Source: a virus. From it: a stretch of 23,933 bases of DNA. Both the position numbers and the translations under genes were made by a program. The DNA lies in the IMG/VR virus record IMGVR_UViG_3300030108_003438, positions 1 through 23,933 of that record; one strand, 5' to 3'. Shown one piece after another: positions 2,047-14,984 of the stretch; position 1 is the stretch's first letter; each line of letters opens with the position of its first letter. Below the pieces are notes generated by a model that was not told where the DNA came from, ran no database searches, and saw only the letters and a program-made list of their open reading frames with translations.

Positions 2047-3618
2047 ATGGCTAAGGTTTATACTGGAACTTATGGTTCTGGAACAACTCCTGAGAATGCT
2101 TTGAACACAGCACTATTGCAATACCCAGAGATTGCAAAAACGTTGATTCAACAGTATCCTCGTTATTCAGCGACTTACCTTATGGAAAGAACAGGTCGCT
2201 TTGCACAAGAAAAAGTCCTAGGTGATAACTCTTTCGAATGGAAGGTTATGGGACGTTATAACGCTCCAACACTTTCAGCTGGTTGGATTTCTACAGATGG
2301 TGTAACATTCGTAGGATCTACTGCTAATAGTGGTGCTTCAACTGCTTCAGGTACTGCGGTAGCTGCTGCTGATGCTGACGGAGACGTTATCTATTTAAGA
2401 GGTGATGGTGACACTTCAGGTCGTACACCAAATTTCTTAAACAAATTTGATATGGTTAGATTCCAATCTGGCGCTGTTGGTCTTGTATTAGAAGATCCAA
2501 CTGCTTCAACTGCACAATCTACTGCTAATGGTGGTATTACTGTAACATCTGCATCTTTTGATATTAAAATCGAAATGATTGATGGTACTGCTAATCCATT
2601 ACAATTAACAGATGTTCATGCAGATGCAATTTTTGCATCAATTGGTTCTGCCTTCCCTAACGGATCTAATGGATCTGATGTAGGTGAAAACTATGTATAT
2701 CCTTCTACTTACAAAAATTACCTTACGACTTCTCGTAAGAAAATTTCTGTATCTGGAAAAGATATTACAGATATTATGTGGATTGAAAACAATGGACATC
2801 GTCTTTGGTACTTTACTAAAGAGCAAATGATGATGGATGAGTTTATGTATCAGCAAGAATTACAAAGATGGTATGGACGTAAGTCTATTACTAATGAGTC
2901 TTCTTCTGTAGCTCGTCCAAGTGCATTGACTTCTAGTCTTAGCGGAACTTCAGGAAGCATGGCTACTTCAGTTATTACTGGAGATGGTTTATTAGCTCAA
3001 ATTGACTCTTCTAACCAAGCTACTTATACTTTAGGTGCTTTAACTGAAGACATCATTACTGAGTTTTTAGCTAAGTTATCTTTGAATACTACACAAGCTG
3101 AAGGAAATGAGTTTGTTGTATTTACTGGTACTGAAGGTCGTTTAGCATTCCACAAAGCAATGAAAGAATTAGTGATCGCTCCATCTGGATCGTTTACTGG
3201 TGGATCTATGGTAGGTGTAAATGGTGATGTTCAGCTTGGTGCTAACTTTACTTCTTACATGGCTATGGGTAATAAAATTACTATTGCTTACTGTCCTGTA
3301 TTTGATGATGCGAATTTACATTCAACTGCATCAGGTACAAATGCTTTTGGTGACAACAGATTAAAAGAGTCTGCAAAAATGGTATTCCTTGATTTCGGTA
3401 GAACAAGTGGTGTTTCTAACATCGAGCTTGTTACTAAAGGAGCTGAAGGAACAAACCGTTCATTTATCAAGAAGTATGTAGCTGGTATGATTAATCCATA
3501 CGATCAATCATCTATGATGGCTGCAAATGCTGATGATAAGTTTGAAGCTCACGTTTTATCTGAGTCTGGAATTATAGTTCGTAACCCGTTATCTTGTGGA
3601 ATCCTTTCTGCAGCATAA
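2047..3618 (+). CDS. Major capsid protein (crAss-like/HK97-fold candidate)
   Basis: A 523-residue protein that forms the icosahedral shell. Supporting features are its place after the portal and scaffold-like genes, its length, an N-terminal helical region (YPEIAKTLIQQYPRYSATYL, residues ~27-46), and a C-terminus IIVRNPLSCGILSAA of the type I associate with crAss-like capsid proteins. A region rich in Ala, Ser, Thr and Gly (residues ~85-190) looks like an added surface domain. Residues ~215-280 hold a helix with the DEFMYQQELQRWYGR pattern. Codon use differs from its neighbours: 11 of 17 Arg codons are CGN, while most neighbouring genes use mainly AGA, as expected for a very highly expressed gene. 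The ATG at 2047 follows an A-rich leader. No cleavage site can be assigned. Confidence 0.8.
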   Translation: MAKVYTGTYGSGTTPENALNTALLQYPEIAKTLIQQYPRYSATYLMERTGRFAQEKVLGDNSFEWKVMGRYNAPTLSAGWISTDGVTFVGSTANSGASTASGTAVAAADADGDVIYLRGDGDTSGRTPNFLNKFDMVRFQSGAVGLVLEDPTASTAQSTANGGITVTSASFDIKIEMIDGTANPLQLTDVHADAIFASIGSAFPNGSNGSDVGENYVYPSTYKNYLTTSRKKISVSGKDITDIMWIENNGHRLWYFTKEQMMMDEFMYQQELQRWYGRKSITNESSSVARPSALTSSLSGTSGSMATSVITGDGLLAQIDSSNQATYTLGALTEDIITEFLAKLSLNTTQAEGNEFVVFTGTEGRLAFHKAMKELVIAPSGSFTGGSMVGVNGDVQLGANFTSYMAMGNKITIAYCPVFDDANLHSTASGTNAFGDNRLKESAKMVFLDFGRTSGVSNIELVTKGAEGTNRSFIKKYVAGMINPYDQSSMMAANADDKFEAHVLSESGIIVRNPLSCGILSAA

Positions 3619-4933: not shown

Positions 4934-5620
4934 ATGAAACACACAGTTTTAATAAAAGCAAAAAACCCAGGTAAGTTTAACTATTGTAAGTTTTCTACTT
5001 ATACTGGTCGTGGAGGTTCTAAGATCTCATTAAAAACATTAGACGGAGAAGTATCTACAGGATATGAAATGTTTAGTGCTATCGTAGCATTAGATTTAAA
5101 TGATGAGTATGATAAAAGAGTATTTGATTTTCTTAAAGATCATCCATTAGTAAAAGGGGGTAATTTTGTTTTAGAAGATTTATCAGCTAATGAAAGAAAC
5201 GCAGCTGAAATGTCTTTAGCAAAAGCAGATGCTGTAACTGCAGCAGCTACATTAAGCAAAAAAGAAATAGAAGACTTATGTCACTTAATTGGATTGCATG
5301 GTGATTGGGATGATAACATACGTAAAGCAAAAATTATTGGATATGCTAGCGACAACCCAAATAGATTTCTAGATGCGTTAGATGATAAGGATGCACCAAT
5401 AAAAATATTTATTAGAAAATGTTTATCTAAAGATATTTTTGCAAGAGTAAATGGAGTGTATAAGTATGGTACAGCAACTATTGGCTTAACAGAAGATCAA
5501 GCTGTATTATGGGTAAAAGATAACGCTGATATACACGCATTACTTAAAAACCAATTACGAGGCAATGTGGTAGAAGAAGTAGTAGAAGAAATTGTTGAAC
5601 CAGAAAAAGAAAGTAAATAA
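4934..5620 (+). CDS. Structural-module protein of unknown function
   Basis: A 228-residue protein. The N-terminal third looks like alpha/beta (HTVLIKAKNPGKF... then DKRVFDFLKDHPLVKGGNF, residues ~60-78). Residues ~105-205 are helical with LSKKEIEDLCHLIG and a Lys-rich stretch. The tail is a short acidic repeat of Val and Glu (residues ~212-226). Its stop overlaps the next start by one base (TAATG), so it is likely co-translated with the 213-residue connector protein. That context suggests a head-completion or neck role, but no motif allows a firm call. Confidence 0.55.
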   Translation: MKHTVLIKAKNPGKFNYCKFSTYTGRGGSKISLKTLDGEVSTGYEMFSAIVALDLNDEYDKRVFDFLKDHPLVKGGNFVLEDLSANERNAAEMSLAKADAVTAAATLSKKEIEDLCHLIGLHGDWDDNIRKAKIIGYASDNPNRFLDALDDKDAPIKIFIRKCLSKDIFARVNGVYKYGTATIGLTEDQAVLWVKDNADIHALLKNQLRGNVVEEVVEEIVEPEKESK

Positions 5621-6261
5621 TGAATATACAAGAAGCTCATGATTTGATGGATTTGCTATTAGATAAAGCAGATCAACCATATTTTACAGAAGATGAAAAA
5701 AATATGTTTTTAGATCAAGCCATAGCTTCTTTTATAAATTATCATTATGCAACTTTTGATCAAGAACAAGTGTCTAGAGATGCTTTAATGTATTTTACAG
5801 CTAACTTAGTTGATTTTGATTCAGATAATGAAAATTGGATTGGTAATTCTATGACTTTGCCTGAAAACTATGTTCATTTAATACATTTTAGGATATCTTA
5901 TGATGGTGGTCCATTTAGGGCAGCAAAAATTATAGGAACAAAAGATTTTTGGGATTTAGAACATTCAAGTGATCCTTTTAACAAACCAATAGAAACAAGT
6001 CCATATTGTTATGTAAGAGATCCGCAAGGTGCAACTCCAAAAATATATTTTAGACCAATAGCAACTATAGGATCAGTTGATGCTGTATGTATTGTATTTA
6101 GAGATCATCATGATTGTTTTAGTGATGATAATAACAATACTGTAAGAGAAATATATCAACGAGAAATTATTGATATAGCAATAAGAAAAATGACAGGAAA
6201 TATTGAAGGAGCTAATATTGAGTTCCAACAGATTGAAGCAGAGCAAAGCAAATCAATATAA
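5620..6261 (+). CDS. Probable head-tail connector (ring/adaptor) protein
   Basis: A 213-residue protein. It starts with a helical region of the type seen in head-tail adaptors (IQEAHDLMDLLLDKADQPYF, then DEKNMFLDQAIASFINYHY, residues 3-43). A beta-rich part follows with TLPENYVHLIHFRISY (residues ~79-94) and a KIYFRP strand. It closes with a helix (IYQREIIDIAIRKMTGNIEG, residues ~178-197). This helix-strand-helix layout and the 'LP.dYvHL' signature match connector proteins that dock under the portal in crAss-like and P22-like podoviruses. It lies between a TAATG coupling to the 228-residue gene and a terminator region. Family assignment is by pattern only. Confidence 0.55.
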   Translation: MNIQEAHDLMDLLLDKADQPYFTEDEKNMFLDQAIASFINYHYATFDQEQVSRDALMYFTANLVDFDSDNENWIGNSMTLPENYVHLIHFRISYDGGPFRAAKIIGTKDFWDLEHSSDPFNKPIETSPYCYVRDPQGATPKIYFRPIATIGSVDAVCIVFRDHHDCFSDDNNNTVREIYQREIIDIAIRKMTGNIEGANIEFQQIEAEQSKSI

Positions 6262-6356: not shown

Positions 6357-7256
6357 ATGGCTACATTAAATGAAATAGTATATAATATTAAAAGTATTGC
6401 CAATGGTGGCAATAGTGATACTGAGCAAGATTTAAGCTCTAGACAAGTTAAATTTTGGGTACACTATCATAGAGCAAAGCTGTTAAGACAATTAGCAGCA
6501 AGCGGTAGACAGTTGCCTAGTATATGTTTTCAAAATTTTAATGCTAGACAAAACATGGATTATTTTATGAAAGATACTGAATGGGAAACATATGTAGTCG
6601 CAAACACAGCATCTTCATCTGAACTTTTAGTTTTATCTGATAGAACTGCACAATTATCAAATTATACATTTACTCATCCTGTAACTTTTAATGAAGATTT
6701 TTATGGTAGAGATTTTTTTAATTTCGATGTATATGAAGATAATGATGAATATGGCAGATTTATAATAAAATATCCACAGCTTTTAAATATTAATAATAAT
6801 TTTGGTTTTAAAGAATTATATTTAAAATACGGACAATATAGTGCTAATCAAAATCATGCACCTATAGCAGTTCCTGTTGTTTCAAAAGATGAAGTGATAA
6901 ATAAAAAATTTAATCGATTTAGTAATGCAGTGTCACCAGCAGCATATATAGATATGTATTCAGAACCAACAGGGCAAGTTGTAGTTATACAGCAGCTTAG
7001 AAGTGTTTTTAGAGAATCTGTTGGTGGTTATACAGATCCGATACAATATAGAGTCTATGCTAATGTGTGTTTACAAAATCCAACTGAGTTACCTGGTTGG
7101 ACTGATGACGATATATATCCAATACCACAATATTTGGTGCAGGATTTAACACAAAGTGTATTACAAGAACTACAAGCACAATTAGCAGTACCAAGCGATA
7201 GAATATCAGACAATGCAGATACAGCAAAACTTGTACAGCAAAAAGTACAAAGATAA
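6357..7256 (+). CDS. Head-tail connector/ring protein (crAss-like structural family)
   Basis: A 299-residue protein. Its N-terminus MATLNEIVYNIKSIANGG plus SSRQVKFWVHYHRAKLLRQ (residues 27-45) is a signature I associate with crAss-like phage proteins of the portal-proximal ring and tail assembly. Beta-rich segments follow (residues ~60-240). Near the C-terminus is a helix with QYLVQDLTQSVLQELQAQLA (residues ~257-276). It is the first gene after the promoter at 6322-6356, and the next gene overlaps it by 44 nt. No membrane segment or signal peptide. The role is inferred from remembered family pattern and position among connector genes. Confidence 0.6.
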   Translation: MATLNEIVYNIKSIANGGNSDTEQDLSSRQVKFWVHYHRAKLLRQLAASGRQLPSICFQNFNARQNMDYFMKDTEWETYVVANTASSSELLVLSDRTAQLSNYTFTHPVTFNEDFYGRDFFNFDVYEDNDEYGRFIIKYPQLLNINNNFGFKELYLKYGQYSANQNHAPIAVPVVSKDEVINKKFNRFSNAVSPAAYIDMYSEPTGQVVVIQQLRSVFRESVGGYTDPIQYRVYANVCLQNPTELPGWTDDDIYPIPQYLVQDLTQSVLQELQAQLAVPSDRISDNADTAKLVQQKVQR

Positions 7257-7677
7257 ATATGATACAGCAAGAGATATTTATAATAATATAAAAAATCTTG
7301 TTAGCATTAAAGGAGAGTGGTTAAAGGGGCAAAAAAAATATAGAACAAAGAAACTAGATTACAAAACCTATTATGCGGTTATATCTAGATTCTTTGAAAT
7401 ATTGATAAGGGATGTTGTTTTAAGAAATGAGTTAATTCATTTACCATGTGATCTTGGATATGTATACTTAGATAAAAAAGAACACAAAAGAGCATTTCAT
7501 TATCGAGTAGATATAAATGAATCTAATAAAAAAGGTAAACTTGTAAAATATAAAGTACCTATATTAGATGATTATTACTATAAAATAGTTTGGAAAAGAC
7601 CAAAAAAATATAGTAAATGTAAAATTATGCCACTAGGCAATTTTAAAAAACAAATAAATAAATTAAAAACAACATAA
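7213..7677 (+). CDS. Conserved small basic protein of the neck/tail gene cluster
   Basis: A 154-residue protein rich in Lys and Tyr, starting within the last 44 nt of the previous gene; no later Met is available near the N-terminus. The core FFEILIRDVVLRNELIHLPC followed by DLGYVYLDKK (residues ~60-89), and a later YYYKIVWKRP (residues ~121-130), follow a pattern (helix, 'LP-x-x-LGYhhh', then a 'Y-x-W' segment and basic tail) that I recall from crAss-like phages in the same place between ring proteins. Its biochemical role is unknown to me. The overlap suggests translational coupling with the 299-residue gene. Confidence 0.55.
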   Translation: MQIQQNLYSKKYKDKYDTARDIYNNIKNLVSIKGEWLKGQKKYRTKKLDYKTYYAVISRFFEILIRDVVLRNELIHLPCDLGYVYLDKKEHKRAFHYRVDINESNKKGKLVKYKVPILDDYYYKIVWKRPKKYSKCKIMPLGNFKKQINKLKTT

Positions 7678-7678
7678 A

Positions 7679-8140
7679 ATGGCAGATACTGATATTAACG
7701 CAGCCTCGCTTACAGTAACAATTACGGAAGCTTTAGGTGTTGGACATGATGTAACAGCAGACATAAGAGATTTTGCACAAACATTGACGCATACATTTAC
7801 CTCTATTGCTAATGTTTCAAAAAGAGTTATGAAGTTAGAAAATACTAATTTAACAGAAGTTGCTACTTTTGGATCAGGAGAATCGGTAGGAACTTTTAAA
7901 AGAGCATCTGTAAAATATATACGAGTTACTAATTTAGATGGCACAGATGCTTTGCAAGTTGGTTTAGATGATGAAGACTCAGATGCTGCTTATACATCTT
8001 TAGCTCCAGCTACTAGTATCATGTATACTGGAACAACAGTAGAAGGTGGGAATGGAGGAACAACTTTAGATAATGCAACTGCATTAAAAGTAAAAGGGGT
8101 AGCAGGACATCAATTAGAAGTGTTTATAGCTTCTGTTTAA
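7679..8140 (+). CDS. Small beta-rich structural protein
   Basis: A 153-residue protein starting 1 nt after the previous stop codon. Acidic and rich in Thr, Val and Gly, it has repeated beta-strand-like segments: residues 10-17 (SLTVTITE), ~81-100 with KYIRVTNLDGTDALQVGLDD, and a C-terminal strand HQLEVFIAS. The 'hhRhTNLDGTDxLxVGL' part looks like a beta-sandwich subdomain used in virion decoration proteins. Its position between connector genes suggests a neck or tail decoration. No family identified. Confidence 0.5.
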   Translation: MADTDINAASLTVTITEALGVGHDVTADIRDFAQTLTHTFTSIANVSKRVMKLENTNLTEVATFGSGESVGTFKRASVKYIRVTNLDGTDALQVGLDDEDSDAAYTSLAPATSIMYTGTTVEGGNGGTTLDNATALKVKGVAGHQLEVFIASV

Positions 8141-8151
8141 AATAATATATT

Positions 8152-9156
8152 ATGCATGTACCAGTAAATAGAGTATTTAATAATGTAGCACGTAATTTAG
8201 GTTTAGCTAACTATAGTAATAATATAGAAACTTGGGCTGAATGGGCTTTTGAAGCTGAACAATATATAGGCAGTAATAAAACATTTCTTGAAAAAGAAAT
8301 AACATATCACAATGCTTTACCAGCAAAAGCAACAGCAAAAATCGAATTTGATGAAAATCCTGCTGAAAAATCTTTTATTAAAATAAATGATATAAGATTT
8401 ACTTTTAGAACAATAGCTAATGTTATTGATAATGATGATACTATAATTGGTATTGGAGTTAACTTAGATACAACATTAGGAAATTTTGTAGATAAATTAA
8501 ACAACTCTTATTATTATGGTGTTAAAGGTATTAAGGTTGAACATAGCACTGGCGATAGTTTTATTACATTATCAGCTGGAAGATCTGGAGATATAGGAAA
8601 TAATATTACATTAGAAACAAATGGAGTTGGAAAAATTACAAAGTTTTTTTCTGGTGGTAAAGAAAGAATACACAATAAACAAATAAAATTACCTAATAAT
8701 ATGGTAAAGCTTTTAAGTATTAGAGCTGGAGATAGTATACTAACACCAACAAGTTCTAAATTTAAAAGTAGAGTTTCTGATCAATTAAATAGATATTATA
8801 TTAATGGTAATAGAGTTAATTTTTCTGCAGATTATACAAATGAAGATATTGTAGTAAGTTATTTAGCTGTTCCTTTAGGATCAGAAGGATACCCAATGAT
8901 ATTGCAAGGACATGAAGAGGCAATAGCTTTTTATATAATGTGGAAATATAAATCAGTTGGATATTATGCTGGAGAAGTTCCTCAATATATAGTTAAAGAT
9001 TTAGAAAGAAGATGGTATCAATTATGTGCTAAAGTTAGAGGTGATGACAATATGCCTAACTCAGCAGAGCTTTTAAAAATTGGAAAGTTATGGAATGCTC
9101 GTGTGCCAGTTACATCACACAATCCACCACTTTATGATGGTTTAAATAGTTACTAA
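8152..9156 (+). CDS. Ring/tail-tube adaptor protein with an inserted beta-domain
   Basis: A 334-residue protein. Residues 1-53 and ~174-323 together resemble the crAss-like ring (tail tubular-like) protein. They comprise an N-terminal helix with TWAEWAFEAEQYIG; strands KQIKLPNNMVKLLSI (177-191) and YYINGNRVNFS (215-225); PLGSEGYPMI (241-250); a helical stretch through YYAGEVPQYIVKDLERRWYQ; and a final KIGKLWNARVP. Between them (residues ~55-172) lies an extra Gly/Thr-rich beta segment with IKINDIRFTFRT, a DTTLGNFVDKLN helix and GRSGDIGNNITLETNG, of the kind found in other phage tail proteins. The stop overlaps the next start (TAATG). Ring role by pattern; domain insertion is an inference. Confidence 0.65.
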   Translation: MHVPVNRVFNNVARNLGLANYSNNIETWAEWAFEAEQYIGSNKTFLEKEITYHNALPAKATAKIEFDENPAEKSFIKINDIRFTFRTIANVIDNDDTIIGIGVNLDTTLGNFVDKLNNSYYYGVKGIKVEHSTGDSFITLSAGRSGDIGNNITLETNGVGKITKFFSGGKERIHNKQIKLPNNMVKLLSIRAGDSILTPTSSKFKSRVSDQLNRYYINGNRVNFSADYTNEDIVVSYLAVPLGSEGYPMILQGHEEAIAFYIMWKYKSVGYYAGEVPQYIVKDLERRWYQLCAKVRGDDNMPNSAELLKIGKLWNARVPVTSHNPPLYDGLNSY

Positions 9157-12100
9157 TGGCAGGACAAAAAAGTAAAGCAACAGGTTTTTCAAAAGGACTT
9201 ATTAGTGATGTAGATCCTAGATATCAGTTAGAAGGATCATACAGAGATGCTATGAATGTAAAGCTTGTAAACAATGAAGGCACAACTTTTACAATAGAAA
9301 ATATAAATGGCAATAAACAAGTAGTAGATTTAGATGATATAGCTAAAGATTTTTTAGATAGTTATATTCCAGGAGGAACTAGTGGTGTTCCAAACAAATA
9401 CTTTCAAGACATAGGAGGAAAACCTTTTGATGTTGGTGATTCAGCTGGAAACAATGTGCCTATGCGTGGAGCAGCTAATATTGTGGGACATTTTTCATTT
9501 AAAAATCAATTATTTTTAATTGTTTGCGGCTATATTGGTTACGGAGAAACATTTGGATCAACGGCTACAGGAGATTTTAGAACAGCATTTTTTCTTTTAG
9601 ATTTTAATGATAAAGGAGAAGTTATGAAGTGTACTGATATGAGAGTGGCATATAATCCTACAAGCGGTGTCAATCAATTTCCAAATTTAAATATGGATCC
9701 CTTAGTAAAATGTAGGGTAGAAGGCATTATAGAAAATGAAGCAATATCAAGAGTATATTGGACTGATAATATTAATCCCCTTAGAACTTTAAGTTTAAAA
9801 GATCCAGACATACATACAATGGAGCCACAAGAGCTTGATATTATACCAAAATCTAACCATAGTCAAATTGTTGTTACACAAATGATTAGTGGTAATTTAA
9901 GAGCAGGTGTTTATCAATATTGTTATAAATATCAAACTGATACAGGTGCAGAATCTGGAATCTCACCTTTTAGTAATATGTATCATATATCTAATTCTAA
10001 TAGTCAATCTTATACAACATATTCAGGTAGTCCAGCTGGTGAAATATCTACAGATGGTTTTAACTGTAAAGTTTCAAATTTAGATGATAGATATGATTCA
10101 ATAAAAGTTTTTGCTTTATATTATCCAACAGAAAATACACCTCCATTAGTTGGTGAAATTGGTGTTTTTGATATCAACAATAGTAATGAAGCGTTTTTTT
10201 CACATACAAGTTTTAATGAATCTATAGATGATGGTGTAGCACAAATACTGATACCATCAAATACATGGGATATATGTAAAGATATAGCAATAAAAGATAA
10301 TGTATTATTTGCAGCTAATCTTCGTAGTAAAAAAAATTATATATCTGAAAAAGAATGGAATGTAAAAATACTTAGATATAATATTGATTCGAATCAAGGA
10401 ATGTTAACTTGTAATGATGATACTGTATTTGATTACTATATAAATAGTAGCACAAATAGTGTTTATAATATTGATGATGTAGTTACAGGAGATTCGGTTC
10501 GTAGTAGTGCAGCAAATACAGGATATACATCTGTTAATCTTGCCTCGGATAATAACCATATTGCACACAGATATTTACCAACAAAAGCACAAGATGTACA
10601 ATGGAAAGATGGTGATTTTGATGGTGGCACTGGAAGTAATGTTTATGATAATAAAGATCGAAGGGTATTAGGCGGTGCTAGTTATGGTTATTACGGTACA
10701 TCAGATGGAGCTCCAGCTACAAATCTTTTAGGAGGTGTTCAAATGTCTTTTAGGCAAGTACCAAAGGTGGCTGATAATATTGATAATAGAGGTGGAAATA
10801 ATGATGGTAGTTCTATTTTCTTTGCAGCACAAACTGTTAATGAATCTATACAAACAGATAATTTAGTTGGAAATTCTGGTGCAACAAATAATACTGATAC
10901 AGAATATGTAGCAACTATGTCTATGGGTGCTAATAAAGATCCAATGGCAGCAGGAACAAAAAGAGGATATCAAAGGGGAGAAACATATAGATTTGGAGTT
11001 TTGATTTATGATCTTAACGGTGATCCTGGTAATGTTCTTTGGATGGGTGATATACAAATGCCAGACCATCATGATATAAACTGGGAGTTAGATTTAGACG
11101 CTACTCAATTAGGTCGTGATGCGGCTAATAGCAATACAGTATATAGGCAAAATCCTTTAGTACAAGATTATAGATTATCATCAAATGGTAGTGCTGTTGT
11201 ACCAGGATCTTCTGTTATGTATGATAACTCTACAGATAATTCTAATCATAAACAAGATCCATTTACTCCAGAAGGGATTGCTGGACTACATGTAACATTT
11301 GATTTAGCAGTTGATTTTACTTTTAAAATTCCTGCACATGTTAGAGAAAAAATATCAGGATTTAGAGTTGTTAGAGCAGAAAGAACAGAATCTGATCGTA
11401 GTATTTTACAATCAGGATTAGTAAATCAAACAATAAACTATGGTGATCCTGATAATCAATCTAATGGATATATTACTTCAACAGATGCAACTATATTTGC
11501 AGATCCCGTAGAACAAGGAGATACAGATATTATTACAGCTGATGAGGTTTGTGAGGTATATGATACAAATTTAAATGGATATGTTGGAATATCATGTGGA
11601 TCCAATATGGTTATAGGACAAGCTTCTAATTTAAATAGATATCTAAATGAATGCGATGCAGCATCTAATGGAAATTTTCATTCTCATTCGGGTGAATTTG
11701 GAAGTTTACAATACTACGTAAGAAATACAGACCCCTCACAAGGCAATTCTCCTTGGCACAGATTTAGTGGTTTTCAAAGAAAAGTTGGAGTTTTATATTC
11801 ACCAGATAGTGCATTTGGTGTAAGACCATATAGTCATAGATCAGAATCTTTTATTAGAGTTCAATCAGTATTAAAATTATATGATCAAAGAAGATATGAT
11901 CATCATGATATGAATACAAATGCTGATGGAAGATTATCTTGGGGATATGCTACAACTGCTTATTCAAATGGAGGTATAGCAACAATTGCTACAGCCCAAA
12001 ACTATGATAATTTACATTTTTCAACAAGAAAAGAAACAGATTCTGCTAATTCAGCAGGAGTTATGGTAGGAAAATGTTATGTATTTGATACTTATTATGC

Positions 12101-14984
12101 ACACTATATAACAAATTATAGCAATTATAATTCTTTATCAAATAGTACAGGAGCTTTATATGTTAGAAATCATGGATCTGTAGATAATAATGATATGTTT
12201 GCTTCTTCCTATCAACCTGGTGGAGTAACACAACCAACTGATGATCCTCTTTTTACCTCTGATTTTGGTGGTGGTGCACAAGACATTCAAGGTGGTAGTG
12301 TTCAAAAAACATTAAGATGGATTACTAGCATATCAAATTCAAAAGAAATTGGTGATGGAGAGTTTGTAGGTAAAGGATTTTTTTCAGATAATGATGGAAA
12401 TGCTAGTGATGAGTATCCATGGAATAGAGGGTTTTCTAATTTTGCTTTAGGCAAATACTATTGGAATGGTGCTAGTGCATGGAAATCTTATGCAAAATTT
12501 GGAAAAAATATAGATGAAAACGATGACTATTCATCTATTAGCACTGTACAAATGGGAACAAGATCAATACTACTTTATAGTATGACTAATTGGACAGGTG
12601 TAAAAGATGTTGGATATGTTTGTGATGCTAATGATTTTACTCGTAATAAAATAAATAATCCACTAATAATTAATAATAATAGTACAGATCATAGAATGGA
12701 TGACACATATATTCCTTACTATAATTATGTAAATATTGTAATTGCAAATGATGGACAATATGGTGGAAGAAATCAAGCAGCTATAAATTCAACAAGGTGG
12801 ATTATAGCTGGTAATTATCATCCGATAAACATTCAAAATCAACATCAACACAGTACAGTTTTTGGTGGAGATACATTTGTAAATTTATATTCACATCAAA
12901 TTACAACATGTCCATTTCCAGAAAAATCTTTTGCAAAATGGTTAGTATTTCCTGTAGAGTCAGTTGTTAATACTGATATGAGAGGTGGATATCATTTAGG
13001 AGCAAATGATCATATAGAGGGTTTTGATCAACAAACACCTCCATTTAGTAATGATTGGCTATATAATGCAACATATTCTCAACAAAATAATCTAAAAAGT
13101 TTTTTAACTATTGATGAAGAAGATGTTACAGTAACAGAATTACCTAATGAAATAGCTTATTCAAAAACAAAATTATCAGGTGATCAAACTGATGCATTTA
13201 GAGTTTTTCCAATATTTAATTTTTACGATGTTGAAGCAATATATGGTCAAATAAATAGAATTATTAATTATAATAATGAAATACATTTTTTCCAAGAAAA
13301 AGCTTTTGGACAATTACTTGTAAATCCAAGAACATTTATATCAGATGCTAGTGGTGTACAATCTTTATTTACAGGATCTGGTGATACTATAGAATCACAT
13401 CAATATATATCTGTAAAATATGGTACAAAACATATGCATAGTGTTATAGCTAGTGAAAGAAATTTATATTTCTTTGATGTAGATTTTGCAAAGTTTTTAA
13501 AATATGGAACAGATAAAAAACTTGTATCTATATCAGATGATTTAGGAACAAAAGATATATTTGAAAGAGCTTGTAAATATGGTAGATTAAAACTAGAAGA
13601 TAGATATCATAAGCATCCAAGAGTAAGTTTACAAGATATGCCTTTATATTTTATTGGTATACATGCTGGTTTTGATTATTTTGAAAATACTTTATATATG
13701 ACCTTTTTGGATAGACTATCTATAGATGAACTTGACAGGGCTAACTATCCAACAGGAAAATATATAGTTAATGTAAATACTCCAGCTGATAGTGCTGGTG
13801 CTTACAGTATAGATCCAGAAGATCCTAATAAAGTAAGTCAAGATGGTTTTTCTACTAGAGCTATTTACAATACTACAATAGCTTATAGTGAAGATTTAGA
13901 CGCTGTGATAAGCAAATATTCATGTTATCCGCAACAATGGATACAACATCAAGGATCTTTGTATACTCCAAAAAGTAGATTACCTTGGTTTGCATACGAT
14001 AGCAATGGTAATATTGATCATGGTTATCATCATTCTACAACATCATCACCTGTATTTGGGGCATCATTAATTGGTTCATATGGCAATATTCCTAATTTTA
14101 AATACAATATGGCTAATTATATATTTTATTCACATGAGCTTAGTAGAGGATCTGTACAGTTGTGGAAATGGAACGATGAAGATGTAGACAAAACAGTATA
14201 TTTTGATGATGTTTTGTTACACGCTGCAGATGATAGTTCAAACCCAACAGATAATACTTTTGATGCTACAATAGGTTATCCTTTAGTAATGAAAGTTATT
14301 AACTCTAGTACTTTTTTAGATGATAATGGAGATTATAATGGAGGTTTACAATTAATAGATCTAGGTGATGCTGATGGAACTAATGTAGAATTTAAAACTG
14401 ATGCAGGTGTTGTAATTGGTGAATATGACACAACAACACAAATAGTTACAATTATAAATGATACTAGTTTAAGTTCAGGAACTTTATTAAAAAGTGATGC
14501 ACCTATTGGTGAGGCAAAAGTTATTCACAAATCTTATGTTGAAAAAGTAATTAACGATTTACCACAAGAAAATAAAAAGTTTGATAACTTAAATGTAGTT
14601 AGCACAGTAGGTAAATTAGACAGGGAGTTTAAAAATTTATACGGTCAAGGTAATAAACTTCTAACACAAAGAGGTATACAATCAACTGATTCAGGTGTAT
14701 ATTTTGAATCTTTAGAATTTGTAACTGATTTTGTGCAATCGGGTTTAATAGATATTGCAACTAACGATAGACCTACTTATCCAACACAAACAGATTTTAC
14801 AGATGTGTTACATAAATATAGAGAGGGAGTTTTAAGAATACCGCTTCGTTATTCTAATGTTGGAGATGGTGAAACAAATCCAAGAATTACAGGAACGTAT
14901 TTAAGAGTAAGGGTATCAGCAAGAACCACAGAAAAATTTAATATATTTGCAATATTGGCAAAATACAGAAAATCTTATAACTAA
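9156..14984 (+). CDS. Giant tail protein, crAss-like stabilization/muzzle type
   Basis: A 1942-residue protein, the largest in the window, likely the end of the short tail that plugs the DNA channel and opens on infection. Signatures I recall from the crAss-like 'stabilization' family appear in order. They are FSKGLISDVDPRYQLEGSYR (11-30) followed by DAMNVKLVN; LRAGVYQYCYKYQTDTGAES (~248-267); YRFGVLIYDLNGDP and WMGDIQMP (~610-636); RIINYNNEIHFFQEKAFGQL and VNPRTFI (~1368-1395); HQYISVKYGTKHMHSV (~1415-1430) followed by YFFDV; and a C-terminal RIPLRYSN ... TYLRVRVS ... FAILAKYR. It is beta-rich, with many Asn/Asp-Gly turns and no membrane helix. The middle, about residues 640-1350, does not match anything I recognise and may be lineage-specific. 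Both ends are joined to neighbours by TAATG overlaps. Confidence 0.72.
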   Translation: MAGQKSKATGFSKGLISDVDPRYQLEGSYRDAMNVKLVNNEGTTFTIENINGNKQVVDLDDIAKDFLDSYIPGGTSGVPNKYFQDIGGKPFDVGDSAGNNVPMRGAANIVGHFSFKNQLFLIVCGYIGYGETFGSTATGDFRTAFFLLDFNDKGEVMKCTDMRVAYNPTSGVNQFPNLNMDPLVKCRVEGIIENEAISRVYWTDNINPLRTLSLKDPDIHTMEPQELDIIPKSNHSQIVVTQMISGNLRAGVYQYCYKYQTDTGAESGISPFSNMYHISNSNSQSYTTYSGSPAGEISTDGFNCKVSNLDDRYDSIKVFALYYPTENTPPLVGEIGVFDINNSNEAFFSHTSFNESIDDGVAQILIPSNTWDICKDIAIKDNVLFAANLRSKKNYISEKEWNVKILRYNIDSNQGMLTCNDDTVFDYYINSSTNSVYNIDDVVTGDSVRSSAANTGYTSVNLASDNNHIAHRYLPTKAQDVQWKDGDFDGGTGSNVYDNKDRRVLGGASYGYYGTSDGAPATNLLGGVQMSFRQVPKVADNIDNRGGNNDGSSIFFAAQTVNESIQTDNLVGNSGATNNTDTEYVATMSMGANKDPMAAGTKRGYQRGETYRFGVLIYDLNGDPGNVLWMGDIQMPDHHDINWELDLDATQLGRDAANSNTVYRQNPLVQDYRLSSNGSAVVPGSSVMYDNSTDNSNHKQDPFTPEGIAGLHVTFDLAVDFTFKIPAHVREKISGFRVVRAERTESDRSILQSGLVNQTINYGDPDNQSNGYITSTDATIFADPVEQGDTDIITADEVCEVYDTNLNGYVGISCGSNMVIGQASNLNRYLNECDAASNGNFHSHSGEFGSLQYYVRNTDPSQGNSPWHRFSGFQRKVGVLYSPDSAFGVRPYSHRSESFIRVQSVLKLYDQRRYDHHDMNTNADGRLSWGYATTAYSNGGIATIATAQNYDNLHFSTRKETDSANSAGVMVGKCYVFDTYYAHYITNYSNYNSLSNSTGALYVRNHGSVDNNDMFASSYQPGGVTQPTDDPLFTSDFGGGAQDIQGGSVQKTLRWITSISNSKEIGDGEFVGKGFFSDNDGNASDEYPWNRGFSNFALGKYYWNGASAWKSYAKFGKNIDENDDYSSISTVQMGTRSILLYSMTNWTGVKDVGYVCDANDFTRNKINNPLIINNNSTDHRMDDTYIPYYNYVNIVIANDGQYGGRNQAAINSTRWIIAGNYHPINIQNQHQHSTVFGGDTFVNLYSHQITTCPFPEKSFAKWLVFPVESVVNTDMRGGYHLGANDHIEGFDQQTPPFSNDWLYNATYSQQNNLKSFLTIDEEDVTVTELPNEIAYSKTKLSGDQTDAFRVFPIFNFYDVEAIYGQINRIINYNNEIHFFQEKAFGQLLVNPRTFISDASGVQSLFTGSGDTIESHQYISVKYGTKHMHSVIASERNLYFFDVDFAKFLKYGTDKKLVSISDDLGTKDIFERACKYGRLKLEDRYHKHPRVSLQDMPLYFIGIHAGFDYFENTLYMTFLDRLSIDELDRANYPTGKYIVNVNTPADSAGAYSIDPEDPNKVSQDGFSTRAIYNTTIAYSEDLDAVISKYSCYPQQWIQHQGSLYTPKSRLPWFAYDSNGNIDHGYHHSTTSSPVFGASLIGSYGNIPNFKYNMANYIFYSHELSRGSVQLWKWNDEDVDKTVYFDDVLLHAADDSSNPTDNTFDATIGYPLVMKVINSSTFLDDNGDYNGGLQLIDLGDADGTNVEFKTDAGVVIGEYDTTTQIVTIINDTSLSSGTLLKSDAPIGEAKVIHKSYVEKVINDLPQENKKFDNLNVVSTVGKLDREFKNLYGQGNKLLTQRGIQSTDSGVYFESLEFVTDFVQSGLIDIATNDRPTYPTQTDFTDVLHKYREGVLRIPLRYSNVGDGETNPRITGTYLRVRVSARTTEKFNIFAILAKYRKSYN

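Follow-up and report, generated by a model that had tools for sequence, protein, structure and literature searches.

A beta/alpha domain gained by ring protein R1 in a clade of uncultured crAss-like phages may reshape the virus collar

Has a neck ring protein of an uncultured crAss-like phage taken up an additional domain, and if so, what might that domain do on the virion? We analyzed an IMG/VR virus record of 23,933 bases (called the window here, at its full length), whose + strand encodes a cluster of crassvirus structural genes. The cluster contains the MCP (2047-3618, +), a probable third ring protein in the R3/R4 position (5620..6261, +), ring protein R2 (6357..7256, +; PF25702, E 2.2e-11), an IHF-like gene labeled from its position and named by no family search (7213-7677, +), a gene for a 153-aa protein (g153; 7679..8140, +), R1 (8152..9156, +), and the muzzle protein (9156..14984, +; PF25731, E 1.1e-118). 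The third ring protein is assigned from a gene order matching that of phiCrAss001; a Pfam search with its product gave no match, and its HMM cross-matches R1 weakly. The 334-aa product of 8152-9156 matches CrAss_Ring_1 (PF24228) in two stretches with E 4.7e-20 and 72.5 bits, against a curated cut-off of 27. Its gene sits between the R2 and IHF-like genes and the muzzle gene, as expected for crassvirus ring protein 1, and the order follows gp40-gp42-gp43-gp44 of phiCrAss001, except for g153 in the window and a homing endonuclease in phiCrAss001. The open reading frame thus encodes R1 specifically. It shares with phiCrAss001 gp43 (PDB 7qog, 7qoi) the Pfam family, the core fold, and the position before the muzzle gene, and the family and fold matches agree with the original prediction, which took the host of the insert to be a crAss-like ring protein. 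By analogy with this homolog, R1 would form a dodecameric ring adjoining the portal (PMC10172136).

The original prediction had placed the insert at codons 55-172, which correspond to positions 8314-8667. The motifs it quoted ('IKINDIRFTF', 'TLGNFVDKLN', and 'GRSGDIGNNITLETNG') are all present in the frame, and the flanks read as it claimed, '...ITYHN' on the left and 'IHNKQIKLP' on the right. Alignment with gp43 and with L139, a relative that lacks the segment (such proteins and contigs are called bare below, and those with it carriers), shows that the pure insertion spans approximately residues 53 to 171, with the insertion point between residues 52-53 and 171-172; in the feature list, the accessory domain covers approximately residues 54-172 (8311..8667, +). 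At this site L139 is continuous, reading 'TFVKRTATLNIVNKQASLPND' where the window reads 'TFLEKEITY[insert]RIHNKQIKLPNN', and its 'TFVKRTATLNIVNKQASLPND' aligns ungapped with 'YVDKIETIDIKEYRGELPCD' of gp43. Since the bare proteins are ungapped across the site, about 119 residues were gained at one point and none were lost. Relative to gp43, which has 236 aa and no insert, window R1 is expanded by about 118 residues within the sandwich's first beta segment.

Structural models agree with this placement. For R1, an AlphaFold model based on 25 relatives reaches a mean pLDDT of 73.9, with ten-residue blocks over the insert at 72-93 and a poor C-terminus of about 35 residues, and the insert modeled alone reaches 86.9. 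When the insert is skipped, 173 residues of the core superpose on phiCrAss001 R1 (7qoi_FS, Z 13.2, 3.9 A; 7qog_B, Z 12.9), with both phiCrAss001 rows far above the remaining ones, and the core consists of helices plus an outer beta-sandwich, as in gp43. The flanks therefore superpose on a ring protein (Z 13.2) and the insert folds separately (pLDDT 87), as had been anticipated; the opposite expectation, that residues 55-172 are integral to the core, is contradicted by a core that superposes without them. We conclude that residues ~54-171 are a genuine domain insertion into R1.

Using only the C-terminal R1 core as query, and so blind to the insert, we took the best 80 of 100 loci and found the insert present in 54 and absent in 26. 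One more carrier came from another search, giving 55 carrier contigs, and the insert is missing from all 13 R1s that came from annotated crAss-like phages (phiCrAss001 and phi14:2 among them). Relatives without the segment thus exist, as they would not if it belonged to the standard fold. When a tree was built from the core with the insert removed (a quick tree, with phi14:2 on a long branch), the carriers fell on one side of a single branch (SH-aLRT 99), nested among bare proteins. This topology indicates one gain, and on the core sequences the insert was acquired once, in the ancestor of one clade of uncultured crAss-like phages. Conversely, the segment could be ancestral and integral to the R1 fold, with the bare relatives having lost it. 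All close relatives do carry the segment, but the nesting of the carriers as one clade among bare proteins and the superposition of the core on gp43 without the insert make this history highly improbable. Carriers and bare relatives share IMG sample numbers (L026 and L133 with L137 in 3300030107, L126 with L145 in 3300030329, and L005 with L153 in 3300044267), so habitat alone does not account for the distribution of the insert. When bacterial genome contigs were scanned for R1, no relative turned up, and hence there was no host link.

Selection on the insert differs in degree from that on the core. Among close relatives, dN/dS is 0.19-0.37 in the insert and 0.03-0.07 in the core (Nei-Gojobori, few changes), mean identity across 25 sequences is 40% versus 73%, and the insert varies more in length. 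By these sequence measures, the insert is under purifying selection and evolves faster than the core; it appears to be kept but change-tolerant, as expected for an exposed domain. The higher dN/dS and length variation would also suit a passive passenger without selected function, an explanation we regard as barely credible given the purifying selection and the fact that no loss of the domain was found in any carrier lineage here. With 55 carriers, 26 bare relatives, 13 bare annotated R1s, and this selection, the insert is not a chance pattern.

We compared the insert with known folds and sequences. Its best solved fold matches are accessory domains of contractile sheaths, led by that of A-1(L) (8kee_C, Z 9.5, 101 residues, 3.3 A) and followed by those of PhiTE, Milano, Mu, 7-7-1, and Bas63 (Z 8.0-8.9); a Z near 8 can be common, yet sheaths consistently take the top rows, with the match at the same place. 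Lower matches include residues 138-249 of T7-type nozzle proteins (Z 7.5-8.1), flagellins and FliD (about 5-7), and T4 gp11 (6.0). We dropped a reading of the T7 gp12 match as a fiber dock; residues after Y146 have been placed in the nozzle tip in the published work. Among predicted viral proteins, the best matches are proteins of uncultured phages and of RcTitan (E 1.7e-7 to 4e-6), one of them named a major tail protein.

The window's own insert sequence alone retrieved nothing useful from Pfam, PHROGs, the phage collection, or PDB sequences, nor did insert profiles retrieve anything useful from PDB sequences. Only with diverged members of the insert family as queries did we reach phrog_28344 (E 1.2e-6); tail-tube proteins of Rhodobacter phages were then matched too, though weakly. 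Using hhalign, a 25-row insert profile scored 63-69 against three tail-tube modules over 95-96 columns (probability 97%), compared with 13 or less in 21 controls; with the complete RcMeacham tail tube, it scored 80.7 across 110 columns. The insert is thus, as judged from profile comparison, a sequence homolog of modules in Rhodobacter-phage tail-tube proteins. The same procedure detected no sequence homology to the Mu gpL sheath (11.8, equal to shuffled controls). Together, the tail-tube homology and the fold-similar sheath and nozzle domains bear out the original description of the insert as a modular domain seen in unrelated phage tail proteins.

These relatives resemble the insert to different extents. 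The modules of the RcMeacham and RcSpartan tail tubes, of a family related to phrog_28344, are homologous over 95-110 columns and, like the insert, are extra modules on a tail ring-forming protein, but their host protein is a siphophage tail tube rather than a podophage ring such as R1. The RcSpartan protein (L075:2348-4561) carries two tandem copies of the module near its N-terminus. Contractile sheath accessory domains (A-1(L), Mu, Milano, PhiTE) share the fold with the insert (Z 8-9.5 over 79-101 residues), whereas their host fold differs from R1 and, for Mu gpL, sequence homology is undetectable. For such a domain within a phage tail protein, phage XM1 provides a published precedent, a FliD-like insertion domain in its sheath (PMC10457771), which we liken to the insert from its published description; it sits in the sheath, and the insert in a neck ring. 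The beta domain of the T7 adaptor gp11, called a 'fiber dock' (PMC6702177), corresponds in position to the outer beta-sandwich that R1 itself possesses; the insert is an extra domain atop this sandwich and not the gp11 beta domain itself.

Such relatives could mean that the insert is a surface decoration or adhesin, an outward domain that binds a host or environmental polymer or shields the neck, with no role in collar assembly. Homologous modules occur in tail tubes, siphophage tail tubes bear decorating domains, similar folds are peripheral in sheaths, nozzles, and the flagellar cap, and the insert evolves fast. We nevertheless consider this account somewhat unlikely, as the domain is conserved in the whole clade and changes in the neighboring ring protein R2 suggest structural contact.

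In carriers R2 is 293-357 aa long, whereas most bare relatives have an R2 of 216-250 aa, with two exceptions at 276 and 285. R2 of every insert-clade locus is about 70 aa longer than that of most bare relatives and phiCrAss001 gp40. The extra segment lies near the first beta segment of R2, with no similarity to the R1 module apparent. Pairwise distances of the insert and R2, after removal of the core, muzzle, and IHF-like components, are correlated across 24 loci (partial r 0.44, permutation p 0.0005), and the partial correlation is 0.71 in the 16 clade-A loci (range reported 0.44-0.72); both sequences are fast and partly saturated, which may inflate these values, and the distance pairs are not independent. 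Insert divergence tracks R2 but neither the muzzle protein (partial r 0.01, i.e. about 0) nor the IHF-like protein. This co-variation points to contact between the insert and R2.

The upstream gene g153 is a further companion of the insert. It lies directly upstream of R1 in all carrier contigs and at that site in 0 of 26 bare contigs, and one or two diverged homologs occur elsewhere in the structural or lysis region of several bare genomes. The insert, the R2 enlargement, and the upstream g153 map to one branch, so their co-occurrence counts as one event. Distances of g153 are nearly uncorrelated with those of the R1 core (r 0.11), which, with its constant position in the clade, suggests that g153 has been swapped between genomes. 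Distance co-variation (r 0.06, p 0.22) also lends no support to a partnership of g153 with the insert beyond that of neighboring genes.

Where would the domain stand on the virion? The phiCrAss001 rings are stacked dodecamers whose subunits consist of helices and a beta-sandwich, and R1 together with R2 holds the fiber hubs (PMC10172136); in T7 gp11, the channel is lined by helices, and the beta domain serves as a fiber dock (PMC6702177). Because the insert lies in the first segment of the sandwich, with this geometry it should stand outside, and its placement on the outer surface of the ring, as the original prediction had suggested, is likely by analogy. R1 gained its tail-decoration-type beta/alpha domain of about 118 residues once, in the clade ancestor; the domain entered the first beta segment of the outer beta-sandwich at one site and left the ring fold undisturbed. 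We propose that twelve copies, following phiCrAss001, would decorate the outside of the portal-adjoining ring and most likely pack on R2, the ring below, which is enlarged in the same clade. The result might be a thickened collar over the R1-R2 seam, the site of the fiber-docking hubs in phiCrAss001. Such a collar would probably be a binding surface for appendages (fibers or small virion proteins, perhaps g153), a neck stiffener, or both. R1 identity, the split between bare and carrier proteins, the outer-tail fold matches, the enlarged R2 and its co-variation with the insert, and the hub position lead us to this model; we give the thickened R1-R2 collar, with an outward R1 domain packed on an enlarged R2 and possibly serving appendages, slightly less than an even chance.

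Co-variation with R2 would also suit a stabilizing clamp, in which the domain mainly links R1 to R2, the portal, or the capsid vertex and makes the neck stronger but docks nothing, in place of the disulfide stitching reported for phiCrAss001. Only one cysteine, C292, is present in window R1, which reads 'LPNN' where most gut R1s have 'LPCD'. However, the 'LPCD' cysteine is mostly missing in bare environmental relatives too, so that its loss is unlinked to the insert, and we think a clamp unlikely. A bolder version of the collar model, in which the insert, the enlarged R2, and g153 jointly form a new fiber collar doing the THA/THB job of gut crassviruses, with the module captured from another phage's tail gene, seems to us quite doubtful. 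THA/THB hubs were not found in carriers, where, as among bare relatives, most contigs are incomplete, so that absence carries little weight. Nor did they turn up in bare relatives, two Suoliviridae, or phi14:2, although Steigviridae positive controls matched; a carrier-specific replacement of the hub is therefore unsupported.

According to these results, a core component of the crAss-like phage neck is a site of domain insertion, and the extra domain probably reshapes the virus collar. The 55 contigs with the insert and the 26 without it, separated by one gain, constitute a natural experiment. The results also connect the neck ring of a short-tailed phage with accessory modules found in long and in contractile tails, mark the R1-R2 seam, which holds fibers in phiCrAss001, as a remodeled surface, and offer a concrete entry point to the hosts and attachment of uncultured relatives. 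One targeted full-text search of open-licence papers found no description of the insert. Beyond the original prediction, the analysis adds that the domain was gained once, that 26 relatives are bare, that the module is homologous to tail-tube modules, that R2 is enlarged and co-varies with the insert, and that g153 lies upstream.

R1s of four Suoliviridae (L064, L069, L070, and L073; cr10_1, cr4_1, cr55_1, and cr56_1), 307-321 aa long, carry in another loop, after a 'TGSF/TSSF/TNSF' motif, an extra segment that differs from the insert and is roughly 65-80 aa long, so R1 has taken insertions at two places. Read with table 11, the R1 frames of L069, L071, and L073 (cr4_1, cr130_1, and cr56_1) are interrupted by in-frame stop codons, consistent with stop-codon recoding in these phages.
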